A program made the translations under genes and the position numbers. Below the pieces are notes generated by a model. It saw only the letters and a list, made by a program, of their open reading frames with translations. It was not told the origin of the DNA and did no database searches. From positions 1-44,394 of IMG/VR virus record IMGVR_UViG_3300034105_000115: a DNA stretch of 44,394 nt. One strand, given 5' to 3'. This document shows, one piece after another, positions 21,012 through 43,121 of the stretch (positions within the stretch are counted from its first letter, which is position 1; each line of letters starts with the position of its first letter). The stretch comes from a virus.

Positions 21012-21266
21012 TTAAAAATTGCCGCCTTCGGTCAATAGGTCTTGTGGTTTATTAGTCCAATTATTTCCATTAAACGATAGTAGATCATTAGCTGATAAAT
21101 TACTTATAGATATAGCAGTGCCAGATATAGTACTTTCTCCACTTGGGCCTCTAGGGCCTGGAGCACCGGCAGAAATAATATTACTGGAAGGTTTATCTAC
21201 GATTACATTACCATAGGTTCCTAAACTAATAATATTACTTTCTTCAATAATATTAATTATGTCCAT
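21012..21266 (-). CDS. Small protein with short collagen-like segment
   Basis: An 84-aa protein starting at ATG 21266 (MDIINIIEESNIIS) with GAGG 8 bases upstream; it starts 3 bases after the preceding stop. It contains GAPGPRGPSGE (about residues 33-43), a Gly-X-Y stretch, followed by LSANDLLSFNGNNWTNKPQDLL, a motif common in phage fibres. It probably forms a small trimeric connector or a minor fibre. The C-terminal LLTEGGNF is close in style to the end of the next fibre protein (NEINGGTY), suggesting related origins. The function is inference. Confidence 0.6.
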   Translation of the reverse strand: MDIINIIEESNIISLGTYGNVIVDKPSSNIISAGAPGPRGPSGESTISGTAISISNLSANDLLSFNGNNWTNKPQDLLTEGGNF

Positions 21267-21269
21267 TAG

Positions 21270-23487: not shown

Positions 23488-23816
23488 GTTGCAATTACCA
23501 AGTAAACTTCTGGAGGAGCATCAGATGTGAAATGATCTAAAGGCGGGAAAGTGACAGTAGTGCCGTTGATAGTAATATTAGAAGGGCTACTAGTGCTAAG
23601 GTTACTAGGAGTTCCAGAAAATAGCACAATCTGAATAATATTAGCTGTAGGATAGCTCTTGACTTGATACCCTGTCTGAGTTCCTGTATTATATACATTC
23701 ACTGAGCCGCTATTTGGTATAAGTGTAACTATATCAACTATACAACCGCCATAGGCGGTTGTAGAATCGAAAGTTTTAGTACCTACAGAGTTGAATGTCT
23801 GTAATCCGTATGTCAT
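23484..23816 (-). CDS. Small MTYGL-type tail tip protein
   Basis: A 110-aa protein coupled by ATGA overlaps on both sides. It opens with MTYGLQTFNSVGTKTFDSTTAYGG, a clear paralogue of the start of the next gene, and continues as a small beta domain (VDIVTLIPNSGSVNVYN..., TVTFPPLDHFTSDAPPEVYLVIAT). Proteins starting this way are frequent after the J-like tip gene in phages. It probably attaches to the tip. No enzymatic motif is visible. Confidence 0.6.
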   Translation of the reverse strand: MTYGLQTFNSVGTKTFDSTTAYGGCIVDIVTLIPNSGSVNVYNTGTQTGYQVKSYPTANIIQIVLFSGTPSNLSTSSPSNITINGTTVTFPPLDHFTSDAPPEVYLVIAT

Positions 23817-29800: not shown

Positions 29801-32317
29801 AATAGGATCATTAGTTATTGTTGCTGAATTTCTATATACTGTAACGCTCTGAAGAATAGATTTAGAATATTCTTCATAATTTAAATCTTGGTTCTGTCCA
29901 GTTTCATCAGTATGGTGACCTTCATTAGGAACTGCTCTGCGTATTCTAATTTCAAAGGGTAAACTAGCCTGAGATATAGTAATAGGGATAACGGCGGTAA
30001 ATCCATCTACTACAGGAGCCGAAGAAGTAGGATCAATAGTATTAAGAACAGACCAATCAGTCCAACCTATAAAAGTAGTAGAAGAAGCAGTAATATCAGA
30101 ATTATACCTTACTTGGTATTGTATTTTATGTACAGCTGGGAAAGTAGTTCCTGCATGGTTACCGAGACTATATACTCTTCTGAGACCATTAGGGTACTGA
30201 ATATTTATAGTTACTTTCTGTATCGGTATAATAATTCCAGCATTATCCACGGAAGGTGCAATAAATTTAGTAGTCCATAGATTGCCACCAGCACCATTCA
30301 CTATAGCTTGTGCAAATATTGGCTCATTTTGCGCATTTGTTACTTGTGTAGTAGTAGTAGTAGTAACCTCTTGTTGTCCAACGTAACTAACAGACGTACT
30401 AGTAACATAAGATGCATCACCTTTACCAGATCCTACTACTACATTAGTATATCCTGGAAATAATAGTTCTACTCCTATAGGCTCTTGTTGTACTAAACTA
30501 CTATAAATTGATTTAAATTCTTTAAGTTTAGTTTCACTAGGGGTGGTTAGATAATTAATAGTAGACTGGGCTACATCATGATAGTTTGTTAGAGGAGTAG
30601 TGCCAATACATAAAGAATTTTCATCAATAGCTAAAGGTCCATAACCCCAACCTAACATCATGGTTAGGTAAGATTCTGAGTAGTTGTAACTAGTAGCATC
30701 TTCATAGATGCAATTAGGTTCGGTCCATCCTTGCCAGGGAATACTAACTACTGCATCGAATGAACAGGGAGTAGCTACCATAGACCATAGTAATTCACCT
30801 GTAGAATTAGTAGGATCGGGATTAGTAGTCCATAGGCTATTAGAAGGGATTCCTGTTAATGTTTTGCTAGAAAAATTGTACTGTGTATCTATGTAAGTAA
30901 TAAGGCTTGGGGATACTCCTAAAGCAGTACGTTGATATAATATTACTGTGGCTGCTTGTAATCCTTCAACAGGAGATATAGTAGATAATGAGCCAGTCCT
31001 GGGTAATACCTCTATTGGAGTAGACCATACATTCCCAGCAAATACAGCATCTGGATTACCTTTTGATGCTACTGTTTCTGCTATACCTTCTGAATTTAGG
31101 GGGACATTAACCGCTGAAGTTGCAACAACCCATATCTTACCTACTACTCCTGTTGGTGGATTTCTGAACCATTCCGAACCATTTTCAAAATATGAAAGAT
31201 CCCGCATGTATACACCAGTACTAAAAGTATATACGAAGGATCCAGGGGTATCTCCTGGAATAGTAGGACTGGCTTTGAATGCGTAGACTACTGCAGTTTT
31301 ACTACGTAGTCCACCATACGTCATGAAGGATGCCGCAGCTACAGGTGGAGTTATACGCATTTTACCTAAAACTACAGGTATTGCACCATATTGATTAATC
31401 TGATTAGCTGCTCCAGTAATCATTAGCTGGGAAGTACCCTGTGCAGGATTAATCTGTGTAGGGGGCCTAATAGGTGCTATTGCATTAATTAATGCTCCGC
31501 CTACCATCATTGCGCCCATATTTGCTGCTGCAGTGGCCGCAGCAAGGGAGACTCCTGTTAGTCCAAGACCTACAGTGGATCCAACAGCTCCTGCAACACC
31601 TACACTAGGACCTAGTGTAGATAGTAACCATGCTTGTCCCGATGCAATAGCAACTACTAATGCTAAAGTCATTAGTAGACGTCCGGTACTTCCACCTTCT
31701 GGAACCGCACGATACTCTACTACGTCAGTATCTTTTAGAATTGTAGTATCCCACTGATCTTTAGGGATTACTCTGGTATTTACAATGATATGTACAATTT
31801 TAGCCAATTCGGGACTAATATTACATTCTTTATTAACCCAGTCATATAACTGTGTTAAAGTAGTACCTTCTGGAATAGGTACAGTTATGCGTTCTGTTTT
31901 TAAAGGATGTGGAATTGCATTTAGAGTAGCTCCAGTAGAGTACTTATAGTAACCACCAATACGTTTTGCCCACTTTACAGAACTAAAACTTTCAATAGCT
32001 ACATCCATGCCTTCACGTACATGAATGAAATGAGTATTAGATATTGCGATACCAATATGTGTTTCAGCCCCTAAGATTCTAAATAGTACTACACATCCTT
32101 CTTCGGGGGTAGTTTCTTCTTTCCAGCCTTCACGATATTGATCAATTAACTCCTCAATACGTGCATTATCAGATATACTGTATTCAGTAGAAAAACTAGG
32201 TAAGTTAATATTAAATTGTTCTGAATAAACAAGACGTGCCAATCCCCAACAGTCTAGACCTGTTTCATCTCTACCATTAGCTTTGTATGGGATACCTACA
32301 TATTTATTTGACCACAT
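23813..32317 (-). CDS. Tail tip fusion protein: NlpC/P60 peptidase (K) + I-like + J-like host specificity protein
   Basis: A 2834-aa protein that combines three lambda tail-tip functions. Residues 1-130 form an NlpC/P60-like peptidase with the Cys motif DCWGL (C23), a His in ETHIGI (H87) and a third His (H99), probably cutting peptidoglycan or used in tip assembly. About 149-272 is gpI-like, with a ubiquitin/MoaD-type strand (ITVPIPEGTTLTQLYDWV) and then a hydrophobic segment. From about 292 it is J-like (ITGAANQINQYGAIPVVLGKMRITPP). A fibronectin III-like domain lies at about 1409-1512. The pair TYTWIAYADD...YTWSKIKG occurs twice. ILEI/PANDER-like domains lie at about 1709-1859 and 2219-2392. 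Tandem GSFAGSLSAAT repeats lie at about 2523-2577. The end (SGQRVVITDNLITVYDSTNQYRVKLG) is typical of J-like proteins. The start overlaps the previous stop as TAATG. Confidence 0.88.
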   Translation of the reverse strand: MWSNKYVGIPYKANGRDETGLDCWGLARLVYSEQFNINLPSFSTEYSISDNARIEELIDQYREGWKEETTPEEGCVVLFRILGAETHIGIAISNTHFIHVREGMDVAIESFSSVKWAKRIGGYYKYSTGATLNAIPHPLKTERITVPIPEGTTLTQLYDWVNKECNISPELAKIVHIIVNTRVIPKDQWDTTILKDTDVVEYRAVPEGGSTGRLLMTLALVVAIASGQAWLLSTLGPSVGVAGAVGSTVGLGLTGVSLAAATAAANMGAMMVGGALINAIAPIRPPTQINPAQGTSQLMITGAANQINQYGAIPVVLGKMRITPPVAAASFMTYGGLRSKTAVVYAFKASPTIPGDTPGSFVYTFSTGVYMRDLSYFENGSEWFRNPPTGVVGKIWVVATSAVNVPLNSEGIAETVASKGNPDAVFAGNVWSTPIEVLPRTGSLSTISPVEGLQAATVILYQRTALGVSPSLITYIDTQYNFSSKTLTGIPSNSLWTTNPDPTNSTGELLWSMVATPCSFDAVVSIPWQGWTEPNCIYEDATSYNYSESYLTMMLGWGYGPLAIDENSLCIGTTPLTNYHDVAQSTINYLTTPSETKLKEFKSIYSSLVQQEPIGVELLFPGYTNVVVGSGKGDASYVTSTSVSYVGQQEVTTTTTTQVTNAQNEPIFAQAIVNGAGGNLWTTKFIAPSVDNAGIIIPIQKVTINIQYPNGLRRVYSLGNHAGTTFPAVHKIQYQVRYNSDITASSTTFIGWTDWSVLNTIDPTSSAPVVDGFTAVIPITISQASLPFEIRIRRAVPNEGHHTDETGQNQDLNYEEYSKSILQSVTVYRNSATITNDPINCSIAKTAINIKATGQLNSQIQGINAIVQTYCLSWTGAAWVSRVTSNPADLFRYILQHPANPQRVVDSDIDTKINLVSLQEWSAYCTTKGFEYNSVLGNQRSVLEVLRDICAAGRASPALVDGKWTVVIDREKPDIIQHFSTHNSWGFESTKLLPKYPDGLKVQFYDEQNNYTQKEIIVYATGQGPTTAVLFETISLPGVTKAASVVDHARWHMAQIKLRPEIYTLNTDVEYLVCNRGDRVKVNHDVPMWGLGSGRIKNVLSTTTFELDEPLAISRTGSYTLRFRTDTGASNTAGLVINYTVSAYSILSSTVTLTIDTHAIRIGDFLTINTSISGLNTATAQVTAISPTTITYSKGGVSDIGTTALTGTAALNDGYYTFIKVNTAITQTDGDLFLFGTLNHESQDLIVLSIEPTGSAKSARLTLVDYGVVPNGGYNIFNSYADKTAALVFESNITLAPVLQIDNLGTFVPGIDDALVRSDESVMELISAGVFRYKIKVPYTNPIGMPTTVASVEGQIKLTNGDSANISNVLVNFNDGIIGFTDVQQAASYDIKLRYIGKDGRTGLWTSPFSHTVVGKSNPPSNVTLVSGSPKINESAINLSWSPCPEVDYASTIIKYYVTGDTAHNTWDTALDLFEGIANTYDWVRPVTNNYTILIRHKDTSGNLSITVTTVSIDYKQIELATIRVELSNPNPTIAAAYDGSNPVLTNSTSGTQIRVYEGNTPLIYDAISTANGFWRFTKADSAGLNSVATTITDSGDYATVGALQSFTDSTSGTVTYTITGKTSLGFAISRTVEQKFTKAKAGAPSYTWIAYADDASGTNFSTTAGTRTYVGIASNKTTSTPSVTYTDYTWSKIKGDTGATGEPGAKLIVASGNTDYSGSTNSYFKIDNVAQGDSATRGHRLKLYDRSTNTLVYDINYDTYNHGSGVTSAGTADDLASYLNSITNTNYIIVLISADACQCTPNLRAAINNKGGGLPNTWITGDTNYSEVSHAFIGAVGLLKGQGVEKIAISGPSVVSSYFTPISLVIGGADGTNGITTYTWIAYADDAVGTNFSTSAGTRTYIGIATNKTTENPPGGTTYTAYTWSKIKGEVGADGNKTTTIYASQWSNSGTPAYTQAATYTWSNGAISAYPGSWVASAGAAPATTGYVLYQIGLVISDVASATSTAFNWSSAVSNSIGYREDGSIGLTGASARTAYVVNTSGTVPGSVTAGTGDVVPTSTAGTWSFTATSTLTAGQYMYQVDGIYNPNPSPGIITWGNPYLSNLKVGSLSALAVDTGNLTVSTTGSIRNFGNTGYAQAGFFLGYDTTAYKFSVGGSTGLLYDGSSLTVPAITISSTGVLTGIGTANKIVDNGIITVNANGSLNNAGTGNTTLPGIGQNSFIVGSNGSAATTSLVSAGLYKNGTYISGTYGRSYTLIKIARASGEITFTRTYDVYGAGAVGGYTAATLAADLNAAYVDSIIVVIGFDEPQGNRLTSGLDTAMYRCGASRVVYGSANFKYRASYILVGIGGCGEGNGAEAYQGTTDGDVNAWCAIGFSIVGGMLTGVSNSYVPLTLKDYSYTGDLDATKGAPSGTYVGGTLAETVAANALAVTNATTGLATKLSKSSDSILAATVSIDTATNNAGFVAGNLRWNTAGSRISGSGIALTAAGLVGYNSLGTNTFNIDATTGNATFKGDISGSNGSFAGSLNAVTGTFAGSLSAATGSFAGSLSAATGSFAGSLSAATGSFAGSLSAATGSFTGGVYGGAYLPQYGNNWPIDPATNLNTTVGEGFALTSGGLLIGNYTAYAANPGGGRGFFQITNEGVVNSPNFSITRAGNVTVTGAIYATSGTFTGTVNANAGYFKGAVYGGLYTAYAWPVASTEGGFYLGSQGLLLGNNNAWAANQASPGTYPNSGYFNVEAGGNIYAPKFSIVNGVLTLGDGASSVTTAATGSGITLNGSVVGNSNIKPNAVTASKIDITGTGATSGQRVVITDNLITVYDSTNQYRVKLGNLG
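24585..24749 (-). repeat. 33-bp tandem repeat in the tip protein (about five units)
   Basis: Units begin at 24585, 24618, 24651, 24684 and 24717, each exactly 33 bp; the last is degenerate and a partial unit follows. They encode the 11-residue repeat GSFAGSLSAAT near the C-terminal end of the J-like protein. The third unit differs from its neighbours by few bases, which suggests recent duplication. It probably forms an extendable beta stalk. Confidence 0.9.
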
Positions 32318-32982
32318 TAGAATATTCCTGGAAAGTATTTAGGAGAAAATGTATGCATTGGAAAGGGTTCCCGTTCGTAATCAGTCATTGCTAAAGTAGC
32401 TACGACTGAATCTGCATTGTATGTAAAGTTAGTTATATATAATCCCGAAAAAGATACTTCAACTCTATCCGGGGTCTTAGATAATACTAGTTCCAGTAAT
32501 ACTTTCGGGGAGGATGTTAGAGATCTGATTAATGGAGTAACAGATCTGGTAACATCATTTAAAGTTATAGTACACTTAGGAGCTTGAGCTTCATCTTCTT
32601 GTGGTAAAGTAACTTGTATAGGTAAAAAGGTAAACTTATTACCTCTACTTGTGACTCCGTAAATAACTTCATCTGCAGTTTCAGATATACGTTCAGTGTA
32701 CCCATCACATAATCTCATTGGTGTATCAGAAGCCGTACCAGTGCCAGATCCGGAACCTGTAGCTATAAATTCAGTACCAATATTATTATCAGTAGCACCT
32801 ACATTAATAAAGTTAGTAGAGCCTACGGTTAAAATACTATACGCTCTACCTACTAGGAAATTACCTGCCGTAGTAGAAATTTGAGGGTCATAAATAGTAA
32901 CTAACATGAATAAATCACTATCCGCATCAGGAGAGAAAATAGCACGAATAGCTTCTGGCGACATTGAGGTCAAACGACTCAT
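32317..32982 (-). CDS. DUF1833 / lambda gpL-like tail tip protein with an inserted GTGTA module
   Basis: Start at ATG 32982 (MSRLTSMSPEAIRAIF), where ATGA overlaps the previous stop; 221 aa. The flanks match the DUF1833 pattern of minor tail proteins: an N-terminal helix, LFMLVTIYDP, then GNKFTFLPIQVTLPQEDEAQAPKCTITLNDV, VLLELVLSK, and the closing FxYxxxxxxxTLAMTDYEREPFPMHTFSPKYFPGIF. This family occupies the place of lambda gpL in the tip initiator. Residues about 39-84 are an insertion of a widespread phage module (VGRAYSILTVGSTNFINVGATDNNIGTEFIATGSGSGTGTA) that splits the expected IYDP...PIR strand. The usual Cys ligands of gpL are not obvious. Confidence 0.82.
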   Translation of the reverse strand: MSRLTSMSPEAIRAIFSPDADSDLFMLVTIYDPQISTTAGNFLVGRAYSILTVGSTNFINVGATDNNIGTEFIATGSGSGTGTASDTPMRLCDGYTERISETADEVIYGVTSRGNKFTFLPIQVTLPQEDEAQAPKCTITLNDVTRSVTPLIRSLTSSPKVLLELVLSKTPDRVEVSFSGLYITNFTYNADSVVATLAMTDYEREPFPMHTFSPKYFPGIF

Positions 32983-33347
32983 GGTAGTACTTCCAATTGT
33001 AATGCTACATTCCAATAACCTGGAGCTGTATATGTTAAAGTATAATAGTCTCCACTACCCTGTGGAATCATTCTTACTTCCACCATAGTATATAACCTAG
33101 GATGTAGGAAACCAAAACGTGCAGTACCTTTAATAGTATTTTTTACAAAACTTTCTAAAATAGATACTTGTGCACTGGACATTAAAAAACTTAGGTTTAA
33201 TACCTGCGGTTTTGCACCTCTATAACGCATTTTTGCAGGGCCCTGATCAGTAGGAGTTCTAATTACTAAAACTCCTCCTGTTTCCGAAAACCCTTTCTGA
33301 GGGTTTTGCGGTAGTCCAATTCCTGCCCATGTATACGTATACGCCAT
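32979..33347 (-). CDS. Lambda gpM-like minor tail protein
   Basis: A 122-aa protein starting at ATG 33347 with AGGAG 6 bases upstream; that ribosome binding site overlaps the tape measure stop. The order of elements follows gpM of lambda: a short N terminus, a strand with MRYRGAKPQVLNLSF, the helix SSAQVSILESFVKNTIKGTARFGF (compare the VLESFLEEHGG..FLW region of gpM), then LHPRLYTMVEVRM and a final strand YWNVALQLEVLP. Such proteins form the ring joining the tube to the tip. Its place between the tape measure and the gpL-like gene is exactly that expected of gpM. Confidence 0.75.
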   Translation of the reverse strand: MAYTYTWAGIGLPQNPQKGFSETGGVLVIRTPTDQGPAKMRYRGAKPQVLNLSFLMSSAQVSILESFVKNTIKGTARFGFLHPRLYTMVEVRMIPQGSGDYYTLTYTAPGYWNVALQLEVLP

Positions 33348-33348
33348 A

Positions 33349-36300
33349 TTATCTCCTAATTAGTGCTGGTTGTAATCCATAAGTACTTTGAATTGATTTC
33401 TGTGAACTACTTCCACTACGGTTAATTTCTCCCGCAGCCATATCACCAACCATGATTTCCACTTTTCTATTGCCCCTACTATCCGTAGACTCTTTAGTAG
33501 TTGCTTTCTCACTACCATAGTTATTGACTACGACTTCTACGCTTCCACTATTACTGCCGCCACGTACACCTAAATTGCCCTGCATGTCGCGCTTTAACGG
33601 CATGATCGCTTCAGGGCCTGCTTCACCCATGAGACCGGTGCCACTGGCAAACTTGAATAGCGTAGGTGAGGAAACAATTGAATTAGCGAATGCTCCGCCC
33701 ATTGCGAATCTAGTGGCCCCGTCGAAGGCGCCGCCTGTGGCATATGGAAAAGGGACGGAGGAGGGATAATTTCCAATAGTACCGACAGGAGCCATTGGAA
33801 CATCGCTACCACTGATATTCCCACCAAACATATTACTGATCATGTTCATTAAACCAGGTTTTGCCATTCTATATAAACTAGAAGTTTGCTCTTTTAATTC
33901 CCAACGTACTAGATCTGTGATCATACTATTAACTAGATCTTTAAAATTCAGTTTCCCTGTTTTAGCAAATTCTACGATAGCATCCGCCATACCTTGGAAA
34001 GTATCCTCGAATACTTTACCATATTCTATCTGTCTATCCGTTAAACTACCTAATGCTTTTGTAGCTTCGTCGCTAGCGGTTCTAGTGGCTTGGATTCCCC
34101 CTAAAGCTGCACTCTTATTTTCATTTAATATTTTAATTCTATCTAATATAAGTGCAGCTGCCTGTGGGTCTGACACAGCAGGTATACCATGTTCATCCGT
34201 TTTTACTAACTGTTGATATTTATCATTTAAACCAGTTATTTCAGAGTCATATTTAGTAACTACTGATAAACTTTTCTCATCTGCATTTTTCTTAGAATTA
34301 GCTAAATCTAATATCATTTTTCTAGTTCTATATTCATCATTAGTAAGCCGATTCATATTCTTTTGGTTTTCTAACAATATACCGGTAACTTCTAAATCTG
34401 AAGTACGTTGCTCTAATGCAAAGGTTTGCTGCATTGAAGTAGTTTCCATTAAGAATTTTGCGTTAGCTATTTTGATTTCATTGATTTTCTTATCATTAGC
34501 TTCGGCATCTAAGAACTGTTTATTAAGCTGTACACCTTTATCTGTAGTATACTTAGTATCAAGATTTGTTTTTCTTTTCAGGATTTCTTGATAGGAATTC
34601 CAGGCTTCTTCTGCTAAATCTTGTTCTTTTTTTCCTTTTTTATCAAAATTTTCGTTATAAACTCGTTCTAATTTAATACGTTCTTTTTCTATATCTAGAG
34701 AATCTATAGTATATTTGTTTTGTAAAATTTGCTGCTCTAGAGAATTCTTTTCTTGCATTAAAGAATCGCTTAGAAAAGATAGAGTTCCTGTATTGGCGTC
34801 AAATATAGATTTACGTGCTGTAAGTTGATCTTGTATTACACCTAGTCGTTCTTTCTCTATATTTGTTTCTTTTTCTAATACGCTAACTCCGGTAGCGATA
34901 TCAGTTGCCTTATTTTGGGCACCTATTTGTGCTCGCTGACTTTGCAGGAATGCTTTTGAAGCTACTGCAGGGGCTCTAGCTCTGGCTGCTGCTCTATCTT
35001 CTTCTGTACCTGTTTTTTGAGCTGCAGCATTGGTAGCTATAGTTTCGCCTTTTAATGCGTCGGGTCTTAGTAGAGCTGCTTCTCTCTCATCTAATTTTTT
35101 CTCTTTTAATTTTTTCTCTTCTCTATTTCCTGTCGTGGCATCTGTCCATAGACTTGCTCTCTGTAAAGTAATTGTATTTTCTTCTACCGCGAGTCTTAGA
35201 TTTTCCTGAGCGTCTATAACACCTTCTTTAGCATTTAATTCTAGCAATTGTAAGTTATTAGATTCTTTTTGCAACTCACCGCGTAATTTAATACCAGATA
35301 TAGTATCTCCAATTGCGGTAGCATATGCCTGTCTTATGCTAAGATTAGCTTTAGCAAATCCTAATGCAATAGAATTTTCTAAATTTTTGGAAGCTCTAGT
35401 GAACATCTCTGCACTAGCGTCATCTAATGCTGTGCGTGCTTTCACGGCGATCTTAGTAGCATCTTCTATTTGAATTTTATTATACTCTAGATTTAGCGCA
35501 GATATATTTGCTGCATTTTTAGCAGGCTCGAGTTTAAGACCTACATTGAACCCCGCAGCTTTCTGCCTATTTATATTATCTAGATCTTTTTTGGCTTTAG
35601 CACTAACTTTAACTAAATCAATCTGCTCATTTTTTAATCTAGTAAGATCTGCTACAGCTTTATTTACTTCGGGGGCAAGCTTAAGAATATTTTTAGCTAG
35701 AGCAGGATCAAATATTCTTAATTTACTCACATCTTTAGAAATTATAGCTAATTGGTTAAGACTACTAATAGGATCTTTAAAAGCTGCGGACATTTTATTA
35801 GACACATCCATCATTTCTATACTTAATTTTGCTATAGGATCTGTAGGAATTGCAGAAGTTAAAATACCTTGTATAGATTTACCTGCTGTTTCAAAAGCTA
35901 TATCCAGTTCTTTGGCTTTAGAAGCTACATTGGATGCTTCTAAAGCTAATTCTTTTAATTCTTTTATAGCTTCTTTTTGAGTACTAAATTTTAGGTCTAT
36001 TTTACGAACTGCTTCTATATCCTCTGGGTCAACCCCTAAAATCTTTTTTAATTTTTCTACTTTATCTGTCTTTAGGTCACCAGGTTCGATACTTTTTAAT
36101 ACTTTTACCATATTAATACCGAATAGATCGGCATTTTTACTTACTTCATCGAATCCTACATCAATAATACCAAAAAACTTTAAAAACTCTCCTGTAACTA
36201 ACTGAACGCCTTCTACGGGATAATTAAAGATATTCATTTTTTCTACGGAAGCTTTTGTAGCCTCTGAAGCAGTTTTCATGCTAGCAACTAGACCATCCAC

Positions 36301-38331
36301 TGCATTAGCCTTAGCTATAATAGATTCTGTAGAGATTTGTTTTAAAGGTTCTTTTTCGCTAATATCTTTGAATACTTTATCTAGTAGTTCGCTAGCACTC
36401 GTTAAAGCGCTGAAAGATGCTTTAACTTCCTCCGCTTGTTTAGTATTTCCAGCAAGTGCCGTATATAGTAAATTACCTATTTCATATACTCCTACTGCCG
36501 CTAGCCCCCATGCGCCTAATTTACTTACTAATCCGCCTACTGCACTAGCTGCAGCTGTGGCCCCGGCACTTACTAATCCGATTGTTGCTGCGGTTCTAGA
36601 TACTGGATCTACTTTTACGTCTTGTTTAACGGGCACCTTTTCTCCGCCTGGGCCTTTAGTAAACTGACCTGGTACCTCAATAGATATAGTAGAGCCTTTT
36701 TGTCTTATTTCATTATACTGTATCCAAGATGCTTTAAGCGCAGCAACAAAACCTAATTCTTTAGTATTGGCTGCAGCTTTAGCTACCATTTCACGTTGAA
36801 CTGCTTGTATAGACAGTTCTTTAAACTCTTTATCTGCAATCATCTGTGCTTTAGAAGCAGTAGTTATACCTTGTTGTACACGTATTAATTTTTCATTAAT
36901 AGCTATATGCGCTCTTTCTGCAATTTGTTGCTTCTCAATAGCAACGCGTATAGTATCGTAACTATTAGCTAGAGCTAAATTACCTCTAGCTCTAGCTTTA
37001 GTTGCTTGTTCTGCTAGATACATTTTTTCCGCGTCTGTAACATCGAGAACATCTGGCTTATCTAAAATAGCTGTAACAGCTTTAGTTTTGCCCGCTCTGG
37101 AACCCTTAGCAGTTTCTAATGTCGCCAAGGCATCTTCTTTAGCTTTAATTTGTACTTCTGCTATTAACTCTGCCTCGCTTTTAGCTTGTGCTAATTTTGC
37201 TGCTAAACCTTTATTATACGGGGTACTTTTAACGGCTACGGCACTTAGCGCACTTTCTGAAGCTTCTTGCAATTTTTCTTTAAACTGACCTATTATGGGG
37301 ATGGTTTTTCGTAATAACATAGTACCTAAACCGGCTACTACTAGAGCCAATGCCGTAGGACTAGAGGCTAATAAACTAACTATTGGACCTATTACTTTAT
37401 TTACTAATTCTAGGCCTGACTGCATTAAATCTTTAAATGTTGCGGTTAGTTTTACAAAAGGATTTACATCTATTTCTATTTTACCAAACTTGTCTTTTGC
37501 TTCTTTTAATACTGCATTAGCAAACGCTTGACGCTTTTCAAAGTCAGTTAATTGAGCTGCGCTTTTACCAACAGATCTAGCATACTCTTCTGTAGCAGGT
37601 CCAATTTTAGTAAATAAACCTAGTTCATCTAATAGTTCGGGTTCTAGTTTAGTTACACCTCTACTAATACGGCTAAAAGCATCGGGTAGGTTAACACCAA
37701 GTACCTGAGAAGCTTTAGCTGCAGCTACGCCCATCCTAGTAATTTGATCGGCATTTAATCCTGCAGCACTAGATGCTGCTACAGATGCCATACTATCTTT
37801 CATAGATATCGCACCTCCTGTAACCTTAGCTAAAGATTTAGATAAGGTTAATAGATCTCTACCGGATGCTACACCTAATTGATCCAAACCTTTGATCATA
37901 TTAGTAGTATCCATAGCTGAGGATAAAACACTAAAAGCAGCACTTAGAGCATAAATATTAGCAGCAAAAGTAGCGTACACACGTACTAATCCACCAATAC
38001 CTTCAGCTTCTTTTGCAAAATCTCTAGCAGAGGCTCCGGTAGCGCTTGCTACTCCTCGTTGAGTGCCGTAAGTCGCGGATGCGCTAGGGCCTCCAGTAGC
38101 TTGAGTAATGCGCCCTAAAGTCGCAATACCACCACCACCACCTCCACCACCACCACCACCTCCACCTCCTCCACCTCCTCCACCTCCTCCACCGCCCAAA
38201 TTAAATTTAGCAGCTACGGCAACAGTATTGGCCAATAGATCATGCAGGCTTTTTACTAACTTTATAGTTCTATTAATTGATTCGCCAGAGGATACCTCTA
38301 CGCCTATCTCTACTGTATTCTTTTTTGCCAT
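33349..38331 (-). CDS. Tape measure protein
   Basis: A 1660-aa protein; ATG 38331 (MAKKNTVEIGVEVSS) is chosen because AGGAG lies 6 bases upstream and a promoter sits just behind it. It sets tail length and is ejected with the DNA. An N-terminal amphipathic segment is followed by a run of 23 glycines (46-68). About 80-340 carries the usual helical start and a hydrophobic segment (PIVSLLASSPTALALVVAGLGTMLL, about 312-345), with a second at about 577-624. Long Lys/Glu-rich coiled-coil stretches fill about 780-1370. The C terminus has the lambda-type end FKDLVNSMITDLVRWELKEQ, GGAF repeats and GLMGEAGPEAIMPL (about 1567-1579). Length is well above T5 pb2 (about 1219 aa), so a longer tail would be expected if length scales in the usual way. 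Confidence 0.95.
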   Translation of the reverse strand: MAKKNTVEIGVEVSSGESINRTIKLVKSLHDLLANTVAVAAKFNLGGGGGGGGGGGGGGGGGGGGGGGIATLGRITQATGGPSASATYGTQRGVASATGASARDFAKEAEGIGGLVRVYATFAANIYALSAAFSVLSSAMDTTNMIKGLDQLGVASGRDLLTLSKSLAKVTGGAISMKDSMASVAASSAAGLNADQITRMGVAAAKASQVLGVNLPDAFSRISRGVTKLEPELLDELGLFTKIGPATEEYARSVGKSAAQLTDFEKRQAFANAVLKEAKDKFGKIEIDVNPFVKLTATFKDLMQSGLELVNKVIGPIVSLLASSPTALALVVAGLGTMLLRKTIPIIGQFKEKLQEASESALSAVAVKSTPYNKGLAAKLAQAKSEAELIAEVQIKAKEDALATLETAKGSRAGKTKAVTAILDKPDVLDVTDAEKMYLAEQATKARARGNLALANSYDTIRVAIEKQQIAERAHIAINEKLIRVQQGITTASKAQMIADKEFKELSIQAVQREMVAKAAANTKELGFVAALKASWIQYNEIRQKGSTISIEVPGQFTKGPGGEKVPVKQDVKVDPVSRTAATIGLVSAGATAAASAVGGLVSKLGAWGLAAVGVYEIGNLLYTALAGNTKQAEEVKASFSALTSASELLDKVFKDISEKEPLKQISTESIIAKANAVDGLVASMKTASEATKASVEKMNIFNYPVEGVQLVTGEFLKFFGIIDVGFDEVSKNADLFGINMVKVLKSIEPGDLKTDKVEKLKKILGVDPEDIEAVRKIDLKFSTQKEAIKELKELALEASNVASKAKELDIAFETAGKSIQGILTSAIPTDPIAKLSIEMMDVSNKMSAAFKDPISSLNQLAIISKDVSKLRIFDPALAKNILKLAPEVNKAVADLTRLKNEQIDLVKVSAKAKKDLDNINRQKAAGFNVGLKLEPAKNAANISALNLEYNKIQIEDATKIAVKARTALDDASAEMFTRASKNLENSIALGFAKANLSIRQAYATAIGDTISGIKLRGELQKESNNLQLLELNAKEGVIDAQENLRLAVEENTITLQRASLWTDATTGNREEKKLKEKKLDEREAALLRPDALKGETIATNAAAQKTGTEEDRAAARARAPAVASKAFLQSQRAQIGAQNKATDIATGVSVLEKETNIEKERLGVIQDQLTARKSIFDANTGTLSFLSDSLMQEKNSLEQQILQNKYTIDSLDIEKERIKLERVYNENFDKKGKKEQDLAEEAWNSYQEILKRKTNLDTKYTTDKGVQLNKQFLDAEANDKKINEIKIANAKFLMETTSMQQTFALEQRTSDLEVTGILLENQKNMNRLTNDEYRTRKMILDLANSKKNADEKSLSVVTKYDSEITGLNDKYQQLVKTDEHGIPAVSDPQAAALILDRIKILNENKSAALGGIQATRTASDEATKALGSLTDRQIEYGKVFEDTFQGMADAIVEFAKTGKLNFKDLVNSMITDLVRWELKEQTSSLYRMAKPGLMNMISNMFGGNISGSDVPMAPVGTIGNYPSSVPFPYATGGAFDGATRFAMGGAFANSIVSSPTLFKFASGTGLMGEAGPEAIMPLKRDMQGNLGVRGGSNSGSVEVVVNNYGSEKATTKESTDSRGNRKVEIMVGDMAAGEINRSGSSSQKSIQSTYGLQPALIRR
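38128..38196 (-). repeat. GGN triplet repeat encoding polyglycine in the tape measure
   Basis: Twenty-three consecutive glycine codons, read on the minus strand as GGT or GGA with one GGC, with a regular GGA GGA GGT pattern in the first half. It is a microsatellite-like triplet tract, so slippage would change length without changing frame. Confidence 0.95.
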
Positions 38332-38385
38332 ATGTACTCCTGGTATTGCCAGTATAAAATTATGTGTCGAATCACATTTCGTACA

Positions 38386-38414
38386 ATTATAACATTGAGG
38401 GTACGTAATGTCAA
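38386..38414 (-). promoter_or_regulatory. Perfect-consensus sigma-70 promoter for the tape measure / tail tip operon
   Basis: On the minus strand TTGACA (38414-38409) and TATAAT (38391-38386) are separated by exactly 17 bases, with TG before the -10 box. This is a full match to the consensus and lies between the terminator at 38439-38467 and the tape measure start at 38331, leaving a leader of about 48 bases. Confidence 0.92.
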
Positions 38415-38438
38415 GCATGTATTTTTTTGAGAGACGTA

Positions 38439-38467
38439 AAAAAGCCCCCTACTAGAGGAGGCTTTTT
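38439..38467 (-). terminator. Intrinsic terminator after the tail chaperone genes, possibly bidirectional
   Basis: AAAAAGCC (38439-38446) pairs with GGCTTTTT (38460-38467), with an inner CCT/AGG pairing and a short ACTAG loop. It directly abuts the TGA of the chaperone extension and on the minus strand ends in a T tract (CTTTTTT). The plus strand also carries a T tract. Confidence 0.9.
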
Positions 38468-38841
38468 CAGGTCTTAGGTTTAGTATCTTGTATTTGTTTA
38501 GCTCTAACTCTATCAATAAGTAGAATTAGTTCATATACTGTTCTATGATCTTCCTTAGCTATTTCATAAATATCTAAAATATCGCGTAATCCTGCGATAT
38601 TTTTACCTATGTAATTTCCACCCATATAATCCCAGTTATCTTGTAGGATATTATATATGCGGAATGCTTCCTGTACCTCTAGGGGAAAATCATCAAACTC
38701 CACAGGAATCTCAGACTCCGTGGGTTCAGTACCCAGCATTTCACACATTTCAAAATATTGATCTCTAGTCATATTCACAGAGCTATTTTGAAAGTATGAT
38801 TCCAGTTGTAAATTTACTTGCTGGTACTGGATTTCTGAAAG
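38467..38841 (-). CDS. Tail assembly chaperone T extension, made by -1 frameshift as a G-T fusion
   Basis: This frame is open from 38862 to the TGA at 38467 and lies in the -1 frame relative to the upstream chaperone gene. If ribosomes slip at 38841-38847, the 138-residue shared N-terminal part is joined to 124 residues from this frame, giving about 262 aa. Visible sequence includes MTRDQYFEMCEMLGTEPTESEIPVEFDDFPLEVQEAFRIYNILQDNWDYMGGNYIGKN and a helical C terminus. The acidic and aromatic middle fits the T domain that binds tube subunits. An internal ATG at 38772 exists but has no convincing ribosome binding site, which supports expression only as the fusion. The position between tail tube and tape measure is diagnostic of gpG/gpGT-type chaperones. 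Confidence 0.88.
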   Translation of the reverse strand, partial: LSEIQYQQVNLQLESYFQNSSVNMTRDQYFEMCEMLGTEPTESEIPVEFDDFPLEVQEAFRIYNILQDNWDYMGGNYIGKNIAGLRDILDIYEIAKEDHRTVYELILLIDRVRAKQIQDTKPKT

Positions 38842-39254
38842 TTTCCCAATTCCGAAACATTTTCACTAACCCATGAATCAAAATTGCTGCTAGACTTCAT
38901 TAAGAATAGTGCATTTTCTTCACTATATTCTAACTCAGCATCCATATCTTGTCCTGTTAGATCAACAGGAGCCAATTGCTCTAGGTAAGTTAACTTAAAG
39001 CCAGACCACCCTTTAATAGATGCAGCTACATATAGCTGCAAGAATAGATCATCATTTAATTCTTCTGTAGGTTGGCGATTCTTAAAAGTGATTTTAGTGG
39101 CTTTCTTACGAATACCTACTAGAGTTTCACGCGATAAGAAATTAAGTTGAATTTTAAACCCGGCAAAACCAGGAAATTCTACTTCGACTTGTTTACTAGG
39201 AACTAATAATGATTTTAGTGATAGACTAGAAACTGAAACTTTGTCAATTGACAT
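38814..39254 (-). CDS. Tail assembly chaperone (gpG-like, zero-frame product)
   Basis: A 146-aa protein starting at ATG 39254 with AAAGGA 8 bases upstream. It has the features of the short chaperone: VEVEFPGFAGFKIQLNFLSRETLVGIRKKATKITF, then ELNDDLFLQLYVAASIKGWSGFKL and a helical end with ENALFLMKSSSNFDSWVSENVSELGN. The pattern 'RxxLxxIRKKAT...DxxLxxxYVxxxIKGWxGL' is common to chaperones of T5-like and other long-tailed phages. It keeps the tape measure soluble while tube subunits add. The slippery site lies 8 codons before the stop and yields a minor longer product. A terminator lies upstream, before its start. Confidence 0.9.
   Translation of the reverse strand: MSIDKVSVSSLSLKSLLVPSKQVEVEFPGFAGFKIQLNFLSRETLVGIRKKATKITFKNRQPTEELNDDLFLQLYVAASIKGWSGFKLTYLEQLAPVDLTGQDMDAELEYSEENALFLMKSSSNFDSWVSENVSELGNFQKSSTSK
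38841..38847 (-). other. Programmed -1 frameshift slippery site GGGAAAC
   Basis: On the minus strand the zero frame reads TTG GGA AAC TTT, so the heptamer G GGA AAC fits the X XXY YYZ rule exactly and in the right phase. The zero frame ends after eight more codons and the -1 frame is open for 124 codons. A possible 5-bp stem (38826-38830 with 38802-38806) starts 10 bases downstream and could help, but it is weak. Confidence 0.9.
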
Positions 39255-39321: not shown

Positions 39322-40788
39322 TTAAGCTGTGTAGTACCGTAGAGCAATTTCGTTAGTTTGTTCTAGATCGAAACCACGTGTTGTAGTAGCCCCAGAAGCA
39401 GATTGTGCTGTAAAGTTAATTACTGTTGATACTACTTGTTCGGTATTAACTGTTGGGATAGTTAATACGGCTGTAGGCATATCCACCTCTATACGTGTAG
39501 TGGCAGCAGTACTACCCCCAATAGTAACAACTAATGCAAACATTGGTGCAATTTCTACACTAGCTACATCAAGCATATCTTGTAGTAGCTGGCCTGTACC
39601 TGCTGTAATAGCTCCTGATAATGTACCTGTTTTTAGGTATGCATTTAAAGATCCGCTGATAGCTCTAGTTCCAGTAAAGTACGCGATAGGTAAGTTTACA
39701 GTACCTAGATTACTAGGGGTGATATATGTAATATTATTATTAATAGTAATATTACCACCAGTTAATGCTACAGCATATTCTTTTCCAGCAGCAACTTTAG
39801 TAGAACCTGCCGAGTCTTTCAGAATATTAACTGCCTTTAATGTTACAGTAGATAGTTTATTAGTTAAATACTTAGCATCAGTAACTTTAGCTTTATAGGT
39901 ACCTGTAACGCCTGTTCCAGTGAACGTGCCGGATGTAGCTGCTAGATCCGTAGAAATTTGTTTCATTTCTGTAGCTTGACCTGTCCAAGCGATAGTAGCA
40001 ATTCCATCTAAACCAAAATCAATGGTTGCTTGATTTAAAGTACAGTTATTGATAGTATAAGCAACTTTATCAATAAGGACTACTAAACCAAATTTCTGTA
40101 GGTTATTAGTGTTAGATCCATGACTACCTACAGTAGAATAAGTAGCACCTACTGGGGCCCACGCAGACTTATAGAATTTAATATCTGCGATTGCCATAGT
40201 AATACCAGTGATAGCTGTAGCACTAGGTTTATTTAAAGATACTGCGATGCTTGTAGCAGATGCTACAGTTACTCTGCCGGGAGCATTAATATATTCCAGT
40301 TCAGCTGCTGTAGCTCCAGCAAAACCTGCTAAAATAACATTGTCACCGGCTGTAATATCTGAGTCTGCGATACCCGTTCCGGCAATAGTCAAAACACCTG
40401 TAGTTTCAGAATACGTTACAACTGGTGCAGTTGCCGCTGTAATTGTTCCAGTTGTACCGATAGCTGTGCTGCCTAGTAGTGCATTCCATAGAACTGATTC
40501 TTCAGCATCAATAGTAGTTGAACCTTTCTTCGGGCGCATATACGTAGAGAATGAAAAATCTACAGGGGCTAGAGCAGTATTGAAACTACGCTGTCCACGG
40601 ACAGGCTCTGAACCAGCTTCGTTAAGAGTAACAGTTTCACTGTTAGTGTTTTGACTAAATGATAAACCATCTAGTACTTGGATTTCGAAAGTATTTGTAT
40701 TCAGTTTAGCTGGAGTATTTACACCAGTGGTAGCGTCTACCGCGGTGCTAAAAAATACTCTACTATTTCTAATTAGATTTAATGCCAT
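39322..40788 (-). CDS. Tail tube (major tail) protein, T5 pb6-like
   Basis: A 488-aa protein starting at ATG 40788 with AGGAG 5 bases upstream. The N terminus is strikingly close to T5 pb6: MxLxLxRNxRxFxST at the start, then a VxDxxSxxQxxNSxxxTxNEAGxxPxRG stretch followed by FSTYxxPxK. Later GGNITINNNITYITPSNLG and the IPxxxFTGxxxxSGSLNAYL pattern match the second half of pb6. T5 pb6 carries duplicated tube domains that form trimeric rings, so the same is likely here. Residues about 112-200 (GTITAATAPVVTYSETTGVLTIAGTG...KPSATAITGITM) look like an inserted domain. The C-terminal Ig-like domain known in pb6 is absent, since the protein stops at LEQTNEIALRYYTA. Confidence 0.93.
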   Translation of the reverse strand: MALNLIRNSRVFFSTAVDATTGVNTPAKLNTNTFEIQVLDGLSFSQNTNSETVTLNEAGSEPVRGQRSFNTALAPVDFSFSTYMRPKKGSTTIDAEESVLWNALLGSTAIGTTGTITAATAPVVTYSETTGVLTIAGTGIADSDITAGDNVILAGFAGATAAELEYINAPGRVTVASATSIAVSLNKPSATAITGITMAIADIKFYKSAWAPVGATYSTVGSHGSNTNNLQKFGLVVLIDKVAYTINNCTLNQATIDFGLDGIATIAWTGQATEMKQISTDLAATSGTFTGTGVTGTYKAKVTDAKYLTNKLSTVTLKAVNILKDSAGSTKVAAGKEYAVALTGGNITINNNITYITPSNLGTVNLPIAYFTGTRAISGSLNAYLKTGTLSGAITAGTGQLLQDMLDVASVEIAPMFALVVTIGGSTAATTRIEVDMPTAVLTIPTVNTEQVVSTVINFTAQSASGATTTRGFDLEQTNEIALRYYTA

Positions 40789-40878
40789 GACTTCTCCTAT
40801 TTAATAGAAATCCATTACAATTTTGCTAGACATTTATCTGCTTAATTGATTTGGGATTTTTTGGCTGATATAGCCTTA

Positions 40879-41316
40879 TTACATAATTGCATATCGCACT
40901 TGAAGATTGATTTCTCCAATTGCATAAGGGGCTAGAAGGCCTTCATCAGTAGTTATAGAAGTTATTAGAATTTCTGTGGTTTCATAGCCGTTAGTAGTAT
41001 CATATACTAGTACTCGATTATTATCAATAACGTTCTCTACATCTTCTAAAAGATCCTCTAGTAATTGTTGTGAGTCTTCACCTTTACAGTATAGCTTAAG
41101 ACTAATACCTAAATATCCCCAAGTAAAGTCACTTGGCATATATTCTCTGGCTTCTGAACCAGCTACTACGAAGACCGAAGGAAAATCGCTGGTCTCATCC
41201 CAAAACTTTAACTTTGCGAATGAGTTATTAAAAAGATTAGTTTTGTATCCTGTAGAACCGTCAATAATTTTAAGCTTTTCAGCGAGGGCTTTAACTATGG
41301 AATTTCTTCTGCTCAT
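40879..41316 (-). CDS. Tail terminator protein
   Basis: A 145-aa protein with its ATG overlapping the previous stop (ATGA at 41316-41313). It has the short-helix and strand order of tail terminator proteins of T5 p142 / lambda gpU type: an N-terminal helix (VKALAEKLKII), KFWDETSDFPSVFVVAGSEAREYMPS, then WGYLGISLKLYCKGEDSQQLLEDLLEDVENVIDNN and closing strands with LAPYAIGEINLQVRYAIM. It would cap the finished tube and join it to the neck. It sits directly before the tube gene, as in T5. About 90 bases follow before the tube gene, where I see no clear promoter. Confidence 0.82.
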   Translation of the reverse strand: MSRRNSIVKALAEKLKIIDGSTGYKTNLFNNSFAKLKFWDETSDFPSVFVVAGSEAREYMPSDFTWGYLGISLKLYCKGEDSQQLLEDLLEDVENVIDNNRVLVYDTTNGYETTEILITSITTDEGLLAPYAIGEINLQVRYAIM

Positions 41317-43121
41317 ACTAACACCGCCCTCATTCTATTATTAACCATTGCGGCTCCGATTTCTCTAATTGACTTAGATATTAACAGTTTAGGGTCTCTG
41401 CTAGCAGGCGAAGACTGTTGTCCGCCAAATGAGAATGTTGCATAAGGATTACGCATATAACTATAGAAAGCGGTAATCATACCCTCCCTAGACTGGCTCA
41501 TCTTCTCTACCTTAACAGATTCTGCAAAACGCCCTGTACGATAGTTTAAAATATCCCTACGACTTCCAGTACCCATGTTCTGTTGAATCTGAGTATGTAA
41601 GTTCTGATTAAGAAGATTCTGTAAAGAAACTAAGCTAGTAAATTGGCCTCCTAGAGTACGTAACTTCATAGGAGTTGAACTAATGGCAGGAACTTTAATT
41701 TGTTCTACAGTTTTATTAGGCCCTGAAACTCCTCCGGTCTTAAAACCAGTTTTTGGTGGTAGTACTTTAACACTACCAGTTACAGGACTATGTTTTTTTA
41801 TTGGTGCAGATTTTATACCAAGTATTTTTAGAATCTTGTTATGTACTAGACTAACTATATCCTGTTTTATAGTTTTACTACCAGGTATATCTATAATTTC
41901 TGCAGTTAAAGCGTCTATAAGCTCTTTTCTAATTTTAGATTCAAATACTGCTAAAGCATTGTTTGCTCTATAATTTTGGATAGTTAGAATTATATAACTC
42001 TTATCTGTACTTTCTAAGAACTTTTCTACACTAACATCCCCATCTTTTGTAGTAGTAGTGCTATTATAAATAGTATAATTAATAGCACTATGTAAATTAT
42101 CTAAGCTTTTAATAGATTCCTTTATCAGCCTATCTGCTTCGGGGGATACAGAAGTATATTCTAGGGATTTAGTAAACTTTTGACCTAAGGGGGTATTGCC
42201 GAATCTACTACTCTGTTGAAAAGCATGTCCAATATCTAATACTGATAAATATGTCTTTCTAACAATAGGGTATTTTTTACCTCTTACGTTAACAAAAGAT
42301 AAAGTATTAGTTCCCGTTGTAGTAACTTCCGCATTGGCGTACTCTTCTTTTGGACTTAATTTGTATGTTACTTTACCAATAGTAACATAGTCAGGATTTC
42401 CATCGTTATTGAAAATACTGTACTCATATTTATCAGTTGTTATAACTGCTACCATAGTATACGCTAATCTACCTACCTGTTTTATACCGTATCTATCAGG
42501 AAAAATTATTTCTCCAGTTTTTTTATTTAGTACTTTTTTATGTGTTTTAGCAACTCTCCAAATAGTACCATTTTGAAATATGTACGTTTTATGAAGTAGT
42601 TTCTTACCTGTAATCTCGTCTATATTTTTGGAATTAGATATCCCATGTTCATCTGAAACTTCAGTCCAAGTATACTCTCTTAGTTTCTTACCAAAGTGAT
42701 CGTTATCCTGTAAAAGAGGAGAGGCAGATATTTTAGATATGGTACTTCTAGCTATTCCAAAATTACGACATACTAATAACAATGTCTTTCCGTTAGACAC
42801 ATAACGAGAGGTACTTTGAAAATTAGCAGGTAGTTGACATTCATCTATGGCTTGTTGTAAAGTATTTGCTCTTGTTACTACATTTTCTAATACTTGTACA
42901 AATACATCGTAAGAATCCTGTGTAAGAATAGGTCTATTACGTCTACCAAATTTTTGATTTTGTATAGCTTCCACAGGAGGTTTATTAGCCATTTCTATTG
43001 TATGAAATGATAGATCTAATATATGTATAGTATTATCTAGAGTTTCTCTAACAGCAGGGTTATTTTGTAGTACTGTTTCTATAATCTTTGTTACGGCGGC
43101 TTTAGCTGCTTCCGAAGACAT
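41313..43121 (-). CDS. Large neck protein, unknown family; head-tail joining likely
   Basis: A 602-aa protein between the connector and the tail terminator, where a head-closure or tail-completion protein of about 100-200 aa is normally found. The C-terminal part (about 519-602: RRDILNYRTGRFAESVKVEKM...YSYMRNPYATFSFGGQQSSPASRDPKLLISKSIREIGAAMVNNRMRAVLV) has the style of HK97 gp10-type or other neck proteins, including the recurrent RTGRFAESV and ISKSIREI elements. The first 500 residues are of mixed alpha/beta sequence that I cannot assign, with a basic middle (about 195-215) and a Thr-rich region. Start at ATG 43121 is 2 bases past the previous stop, with no good ribosome binding site, so translation is probably coupled. 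Confidence 0.65.
   Translation of the reverse strand: MSSEAAKAAVTKIIETVLQNNPAVRETLDNTIHILDLSFHTIEMANKPPVEAIQNQKFGRRNRPILTQDSYDVFVQVLENVVTRANTLQQAIDECQLPANFQSTSRYVSNGKTLLLVCRNFGIARSTISKISASPLLQDNDHFGKKLREYTWTEVSDEHGISNSKNIDEITGKKLLHKTYIFQNGTIWRVAKTHKKVLNKKTGEIIFPDRYGIKQVGRLAYTMVAVITTDKYEYSIFNNDGNPDYVTIGKVTYKLSPKEEYANAEVTTTGTNTLSFVNVRGKKYPIVRKTYLSVLDIGHAFQQSSRFGNTPLGQKFTKSLEYTSVSPEADRLIKESIKSLDNLHSAINYTIYNSTTTTKDGDVSVEKFLESTDKSYIILTIQNYRANNALAVFESKIRKELIDALTAEIIDIPGSKTIKQDIVSLVHNKILKILGIKSAPIKKHSPVTGSVKVLPPKTGFKTGGVSGPNKTVEQIKVPAISSTPMKLRTLGGQFTSLVSLQNLLNQNLHTQIQQNMGTGSRRDILNYRTGRFAESVKVEKMSQSREGMITAFYSYMRNPYATFSFGGQQSSPASRDPKLLISKSIREIGAAMVNNRMRAVLV

Follow-up and report, generated by a model that had tools for sequence, protein, structure and literature searches.

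A T5-type tail-tube protein with a beta module in a loop that is empty, filled or differently filled among its relatives

The tube protein of phage T5, pb6, bears an Ig domain at its C-terminus (residues 375–462; PMC5717097). The locus described here lies in a window of 44,394 bases, the whole stretch of viral DNA that was analysed, and encodes a relative of pb6 for which the original prediction claimed that this domain is lacking and that about 90 extra residues, at about 112–200, lie instead inside the first tube domain. The locus therefore raises the question of what these residues are, whether they are a decoration domain moved from the end of pb6, a part of the tube fold or something else, and whether they are peculiar to this protein. 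The features referred to below are, in reading direction:

41313..43121, minus strand: T5 p143-like tail completion protein, 602 aa (Pfam T5_p143 over residues 485–564 only)
40879..41316, minus strand: tail terminator (phrog_3907; profile match)
40794..40798, minus strand: AGGAG, likely ribosome-binding site, found by eye upstream of the tube gene
39322..40788, minus strand: tail-tube protein gene, pb6-like (phrog_3575), 488 aa (open reading frame, phrog_3575 and T5 pb6 matches, structural match)
40447..40788, minus strand: first tube subdomain, N-terminal part, residues 1–114 (pb6 alignment, model, T5 superposition)
40474..40497, minus strand: helix alpha1 of subdomain 1, residues 98–105, directly ahead of the slot (DSSP on the model)
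40168..40446, minus strand: inserted beta domain, residues 115–207, 93 aa, missing from core-only relatives (alignments, models)
39895..40167, minus strand: remainder of the first tube subdomain, residues 208–298 (model, T5 superposition; boundary with subdomain 2 approximate)
39325..39894, minus strand: second tube subdomain, residues 299–488 (model, T5 superposition)
38814..39254, minus strand: tail assembly chaperone (phrog_313; profile match)
38467..38778, minus strand: tail assembly chaperone (phrog_3914; profile match)
33349..38418, minus strand: tape measure protein, 1689 aa (N part phrog_3779, C part Tape_meas_lam_C)

The tube open reading frame (39322–40788, minus strand) begins with ATG and encodes 488 residues. 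Its assignment as a pb6-like tube protein was borne out: its matches are phrog_3575 (major tail protein, 4.6e-57), the tube protein 8hqz_p (by profile, 3.9e-68) and T5 pb6 (7qg9_F, 2.2e-37), the last in two stretches with an unmatched block between them (query 1–120 on pb6 1–117 and query 224–462 on pb6 125–339), and the homology to pb6-type tube proteins covers both tube subdomains. An AlphaFold2 model of the full protein, built from 77 sequences (pLDDT 88.4, pTM 0.88), has a tube core that superposes on the T5 tube (9iny_A) with a Z of 34.1 and an rmsd of 2.5 over 345/375 residues. The structural match stops at T5 residue 356; the protein ends with the core and, as had been predicted, has no C-terminal Ig domain.

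In reading direction, the tube gene is preceded by a head-tail adaptor, the p143-like completion protein and the tail terminator, and followed by the two tail chaperones, the tape-measure protein, minor tail proteins and a lambda-J-type protein; the upper-tail genes are T5-like, and the tail tip and the C part of the tape-measure protein are lambda-like. No record in the phage collection was matched by megablast with the final 11.4 kb of the 44,394-base window. Several neighbours have features of their own. Within the p143-like protein (41313–43121, 602 aa), residues 485–564 alone fit the 255-position p143 model, and the protein seems to bear a large N-terminal addition. A 2834-aa protein (23813–32317, minus strand) unites NlpC/P60, ThiS-like and J-like central tail fibre regions in one chain; in lambda, the NlpC/P60-, ThiS-like and J-type functions are split among separate genes. 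Towards its C-terminus this protein becomes repetitive (33-base tandem repeat at 24576–24759), and the tape-measure protein contains, near its N-terminus, an unbroken polyglycine run arising from a 66-base tandem repeat at 38128–38193.

The limits of the insert are given by pairwise alignment with four hand-picked core-only relatives (L110, L014, L015 and L206), which have one large gap in common, at residues 115–207 (93 residues), their other gaps being of at most 10 residues. In the AlphaFold2 model, helix alpha1 stops at residue 105 and the insert comes next, as a separate beta domain with strands at 113–115, 123–127, 132–136, 150–154, 170–176, 180–185 and 204–206 and a helix at 161–167; ten-residue means of pLDDT over residues 111–210 are 84–94, and the insert modelled in isolation (69 sequences) reaches a pLDDT of 87.5 and a pTM of 0.82. 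The long core strand at 233–239 comes after the slot, as we call the loop that receives the insert. The counterpart loop of subdomain 2, between helix 398–408 and strand 416–423, consists of seven residues (409–415) and holds no insert. The size, position and beta character foreseen for the extra block are all recovered here. We conclude from the alignments and models that the tube protein consists of a duplicated T5-type core with one beta module, predicted to fold separately, after alpha1 of subdomain 1.

One could still regard residues 115–207 as a lineage-specific extension of the core fold, or as a block facing the lumen, as the insertion lies within a core subdomain and three window inserts would fit a T5-size lumen (0.74 of its volume). 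We give this hardly any credence: the core aligns to T5 without the block, which is modelled as a separate unit, the four core-only relatives lack these residues, the block is modelled confidently by itself, and tandem versions of the insert in other relatives exceed the lumen volume. The block is hence, as originally proposed, unlikely in the extreme to be part of the core tube fold.

Where the module comes from is a separate matter. The original prediction had the domain move from the C-terminus of pb6, and of such a move we find no sign. The window insert matched nothing in Pfam at 0.01, Ig and Big families included, nothing in PHROG at 0.001 (for a 100-residue version, nothing at 5) and nothing by tblastn in 50,697 phage records at E 1. 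A Pfam match to ADDB_N at 0.21 was judged to be chance. Among the window's own open reading frames, the tube protein was the sole convincing match to the insert profile; a short open reading frame at 21015–21269 reached 0.0085 in max mode. The clearest similarity is to T1: against an external-domain profile of nine T1-type tube proteins, the insert profile gave an hhalign E of 1.3e-4 (score 28.4, probability 54%), with 100 column shuffles reaching at most 18.7 and the T1 tube core 9.7 as controls. Whole T1-type proteins matched the insert profile at E 4.6e-4, and a single T1 protein at E 0.075.

Structural comparison gives a less specific picture. The isolated module matches residues 14–97 of the T1 tail-tube chain 9l0f_G with a Z of 5.7 (rmsd 3.0, 83 aligned), with helicase and E1 domains comparable; its best matches are Sf11 9occ_E (Z 6.2) and the phi92 endosialidase (Z 5.8), followed by the FCWL1 head-to-tail interface protein (Z 5.6) and the K1F endosialidase (Z 5.4), and non-phage proteins stand near the same level (helicases at Z 5.0–5.7, ubiquitin-E1 domains up to 5.4). 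Every fold match of the isolated module lies below Z 8, the best being 6.2. Foldseek against the PDB returned nothing at E 0.001, with ubiquitin-E1, V-ATPase and Dna2 chains on top, and against a viral library 1 of 658 reached E 0.001, phage fibres being frequent among the 50 rows listed. The YSD1 and Chi chains, whose domain 2 has a DE-variant Ig fold, do not appear in the 50 rows listed for the Z-scored comparison of the isolated module, which says nothing on a shared fold. Pfam E1_FCCH and End_beta_barrel match the L007 and L010 inserts at 15.8 and 18 bits, below the curated cut-offs of 29.5 and 35, and neither matches the window insert at E 0.01. Of the 69 inserts of this type, that of L010 also matches a tail-fibre family (1.2e-5), and one matches the Pfam TIG domain (0.0014). 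Given the T1 profile match, the reading we prefer for the window module is a relative of the T1 domain set in a T5-type tube, the nearest relative found being, by profile and model, the external domain of the T1 tail tube rather than the Ig domain of pb6.

Relocation of the pb6 Ig domain into subdomain 1 would account at a stroke for a missing Ig domain and for a beta domain of similar size elsewhere in the protein, and it can draw on the name given to the T1 domain, whose residues 16–94 are called by the T1 authors an Ig-like domain reaching outside the tube (PMC11945409), as well as on the TIG match in 1 of 69 inserts. We nevertheless consider it very improbable. Pfam gives no Ig or Big match for the window module, which by profile and fold comes closest to the T1 external domain and to FCCH or endosialidase-barrel folds, and core-only relatives are numerous (117 of 222 among the matches listed). 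What survives of the proposed Ig-like kinship is a loose sense of the term, by way of the T1 domain named so by its authors (PMC11945409), with no Ig match for the window module itself at the Pfam threshold given above.

Is the insert peculiar to this protein? Relatives were collected in five similarity scans of viral contigs, three of them giving the best 80 each and some contigs being repeated, and the proportions with and without an insert describe these similarity-selected relatives, not population frequencies. At least 277 loci were gathered, the window's own being skipped and three being named phages, and 269 open reading frames contained both core blocks; the 222 distinct sequences include that of the window, three from cultured phages, two versions of a single second-paralog protein and three that are contained in longer ones. 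Among the matches listed, the alpha1–beta4 interval is sharply bimodal, with fewer than 60 residues in 117 of 222, at least 80 in 105 of 222 and nothing between; with contained copies removed, 116 of the 219 sequences listed are empty and 103 filled. On this count, too, the original prediction was overstated: the insert is no single peculiarity of this protein, since across the 222 distinct sequences among the matches listed the loop is empty, filled or otherwise filled.

The 105 long intervals cluster into groups of 72 (the window type), 27, 3, 2 and 1. For tree labels, the singleton (L099) was joined to the group of 27 by a motif, although the profiles gave no significant match (E 0.064). 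The 213 rows of the tree described below comprise 113 without a module, 72 of the window type, 24 of a GxGY group, 2 of a GTGT type and 2 with the insert before alpha1; clustered at 90% identity within each label, 155 rows remain (77, 61 and 13 for the first three, and 2 for each of the small types). In the group of two (L094 and L101), the insert lies ahead of helix alpha1 and the helix motif follows it, so that this region has an insertion site besides the slot. Four proteins (L011–L013 and L017) carry extra sequence beside a window-type module, in tandem. Of 28 comparisons between module profiles, two stand out as clear, that of the window type with T1 and that of L094 with L101, and the best of the remainder has an E of 0.014; the profiles of some groups are weak tests, because they hold only one or two sequences. 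By alignment and model, then, the slot is empty, holds modules without detectable profile similarity to that of the window, or holds several in tandem. A minor tail protein of the window itself (phrog_396; 32317–33015, minus strand) includes a stretch weakly like the GTGT-type slot module of L146 (E 0.0018, small database).

Elsewhere in the core, large additions are rare. With the slot and C-terminal tails removed, 1 of 213 rows has at least 40 extra residues at another single site and 7 of 213 have 20–21 at one site; length spread over several smaller gaps also occurs, as in the L121-type C blocks of 301–322 residues against mostly 240–259. Five rows extend more than 30 residues past the core block, and all have an empty slot (two second-paralog rows, one T5-like phage, L188 and L193); mutual exclusion of a C-terminal Ig domain and a slot module was considered, and five rows are too few to claim it. 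The core-only proteins L188 and L193 extend 105 and 54 residues past the core block, and these extensions may be beta domains, as in the T5 arrangement. The L002 contig has, downstream of its main tube gene, a second tube-type open reading frame (555 aa, from base 5354, plus strand) with an empty slot and about 178 residues past the aligned core block, seemingly ahead of the last strand when judged by eye; we take it to be possibly a counterpart of the T5 baseplate tube protein with a surface domain of its own. Among cultured T5-like phages, 899 of 903 records matched by a core-only protein cover at least 80% of it, and 59 of the 60 cultured phage records listed are full-length with spans of 1011–1119 bases, too short for the module, the other being a fragment. 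A scan of bacterial genome contigs gave one relative (L278), matched over 72 residues on a contig of 3.9 kb that is filed under a Verrucomicrobia metagenome-assembled genome, from which we make no host claim.

The history of the slot was followed on a FastTree core tree of 213 rows, nine rows having been dropped, two as paralogs and seven for incomplete core blocks. On this tree, presence or absence of an insert changes 8 times, 7 of the changes being forced by starred branches; FastTree flags long branches, that of the window row (L001) included. An IQ-TREE analysis of 77 representatives, obtained by thinning each label at 72% identity and adding 12 rows by hand, has no long end branches and also gives 8 changes, 8/8 forced. 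The window-type module, which is found in 72 of the 213 rows, changes only 3 times, and this breadth places the insert beyond chance.

Differences of a whole module occur between close pairs: L146/L161 (360/428 aligned positions identical), L099/L253 (295/388) and L120/L143 (309/418). In L017/L005, with 341/470 aligned positions identical, the intervals are 312 against 123 residues, and L005, L011 and L017 have cores 78–82% identical with intervals of 123, 225 and 312 residues. All four pairs involve modules of another type or tandem versions; where the window-type module is concerned, the nearest empty core is 74.1% identical (L029/L110), and for the window itself 59.7%. Where the window-type module is present, it is more divergent than the core around it, with a median identity of 31.0% against 59.4% and the lower value in 99.9% of 2346 pairs (69 rows).

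Such a record could be that of a passenger, a loop that tolerates inserts and in which common phage beta modules come and go under little selection. The at least eight state changes on the core tree, the whole-module differences in close relatives and the low conservation of the module would all fit. We find this reading quite unlikely, because the window-type module persists in those 72 of 213 rows with 3 changes and is still foldable at a median identity of 31%, and large inserts are almost missing from other single internal sites of the core. Retention of a module that remains foldable, in models, at 31% identity suggests purifying selection.

If the module is kept for a purpose, its position on the tube bears on what that purpose may be. 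A review places domain 2 of YSD1_22 outside the tube, at the junction of alpha1 with beta4, where it folds against the adjacent subunit (PMC8718954); in the numbering of the original paper, its flanks are strands 4 and 5 (PMC7385642). The T5 tube has a lumen of 40 Å and a ring of 40.6 Å (PMC5717097); in a lumen of that size, three L017 inserts would take up 2.2 times the volume available, three L011 inserts 1.55 times and three window inserts 0.74 of it. The volume argument rests on the relatives, since the window insert alone fills only 0.74. Because the tandem versions exceed a T5-size lumen and the YSD1 domain at the corresponding junction is external, the module probably lies outside the tube; three copies per ring would stand outside a trimeric (pseudo-hexameric) tube, an arrangement that we infer, as we do the radius and face that the module occupies. 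The claim of decoration in a new place stands in that the site differs from the T5 C-terminus, and falls in that YSD1 domain 2, as its published description has it, is a precedent (PMC8718954).

The same precedent supplies the main rival to a role in surface contact. As in YSD1, the insert might fold against the outer sheet of its neighbour in the ring, which it would stabilise in place of contacting the host; YSD1 domain 2, at its alpha1–beta4 junction, buries 950 Å2 per subunit on its neighbour (PMC8718954, PMC7385642), and the confidence with which the module is modelled together with the core (pTM 0.88) fits a fixed placement. What speaks against the latch is that close relatives can do without a module: L161, L253 and L143 lack one and are 84%, 76% and 74% identical to bearers of the GTGT or GxGY modules. 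A slot whose occupants share no profile similarity, or differ greatly in length, is also poorly compatible with a specific latch interface. For the window type this argument is weaker, because its nearest empty core is 74.1% identical and that of the window itself 59.7%. On balance, we think a latch unlikely, if the most serious of the alternatives.

The explanation towards which we lean, by a modest measure, is a tube with a T5-type core and an exchangeable external module for surface contact in the slot. The tube core would be kept constant and the slot modules gained, lost and replaced; they would act as exchangeable surface-contact domains exposed on the tail and, repeated along it, would most likely be weak binders of cell-surface or environmental glycans. 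An exposed accessory module with a varying target is suggested because the slot is empty, filled, refilled and stacked on a conserved core. A role in binding glycans or the host is put forward less firmly than the outside position. Glycan contact is deemed the likeliest role because the module resembles the beta-barrel of endosialidases, which houses one of the enzyme's polysialic-acid sites (PMC12632334), a resemblance that is weak and common to unrelated enzymes; with Z below 8 throughout and no PDB Foldseek match at E 0.001, the glycan idea is a weak analogy. More doubtful, and offered tentatively as something that may well prove wrong, is the extended form of this proposal, in which the slot would be an outside socket, one per protein and three per ring, whose swapped or stacked unrelated domains would re-equip T5-type tails for glycans independently of the tail-tip receptor-binding proteins.

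Should that be true, phages that come from metagenomes only would re-equip the tail surface apart from their tail-tip receptor-binding proteins. The function of decoration domains on siphophage tail tubes has been called unclear in a review (PMC9022992), and a loop that can have no module, a single one, an unrelated one or several in tandem, at times among near relatives, amounts to a natural experiment on that function. T5-type tubes, as this case shows, are enlargeable at places besides the C-terminus, and the slot loop is a candidate site at which domains might be inserted for display on a tube.

Decorated tail tubes, internal tube inserts (YSD1, T1) and T5-like tubes without an Ig domain are already known, the last having been reported before (PMC5717097). 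The apparently new part is the pattern of the family at one loop, which looks new: in the full-text tail-tube literature, largely outside subscription journals and covered by titles and the starts of abstracts, we found no recurrent loop with unrelated modules in T5-like tubes. The closest systems are T5 pb6 (9iny, 7qg9 and 5ngj) and the DT57C tube (8hqz and 8hrg), which share the duplicated core throughout (29–32% identity, Z 30.9–34.1) and in which, as in the window, the tail terminator, p143-like completion protein and chaperones adjoin. The window differs from them in having no C-terminal Ig domain, in the 93-residue module after alpha1, and in a tail tip and tape-measure C part that are lambda-like. 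Vibrio phages PG07 and D239 have a pb6-type core without Ig (379 and 383 aa), like the window core, whereas their slot is empty, with 31 residues separating the end of the helix block from the block that follows, and that of the window is filled. T1 gp41 has an internal, external tube domain (PMC11945409) that resembles that of the window by profile (E 1.3e-4) and in a weak structural alignment (Z 5.7), in hexameric rings as its report describes them; that domain is near the N-terminus, at residues 16–94 (PMC11945409), and that of the window comes after alpha1, so that the insertion sites differ. For the site, the likeness is to YSD1_22 and Chi, whose domain 2 is an external beta-sandwich between alpha1 and beta4 in the numbering of the review (PMC8718954), compared here by description: the window order of helix 98–105, insert 115–207 and strand 233–239 places its module between alpha1 and beta4 in the same numbering. 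The YSD1 structural match falls on subdomain 2 of the window protein, and the likeness of site rests on numbering. YSD1_22 and Chi, as described, form hexameric rings, carry an extra C-terminal Big_1 domain and latch the neighbouring subunit through domain 2, whereas the window protein ends with the core. Finally, P74-26 (8ed0) and SH-Ab15497 (8xan) match both subdomains of the core throughout (Z 24.7 and 25.0) at 12–13% identity; as far as its description goes, the P74-26 protein has two domains and forms trimeric rings with a smooth surface without added domains, and to such a core the window protein adds its module.
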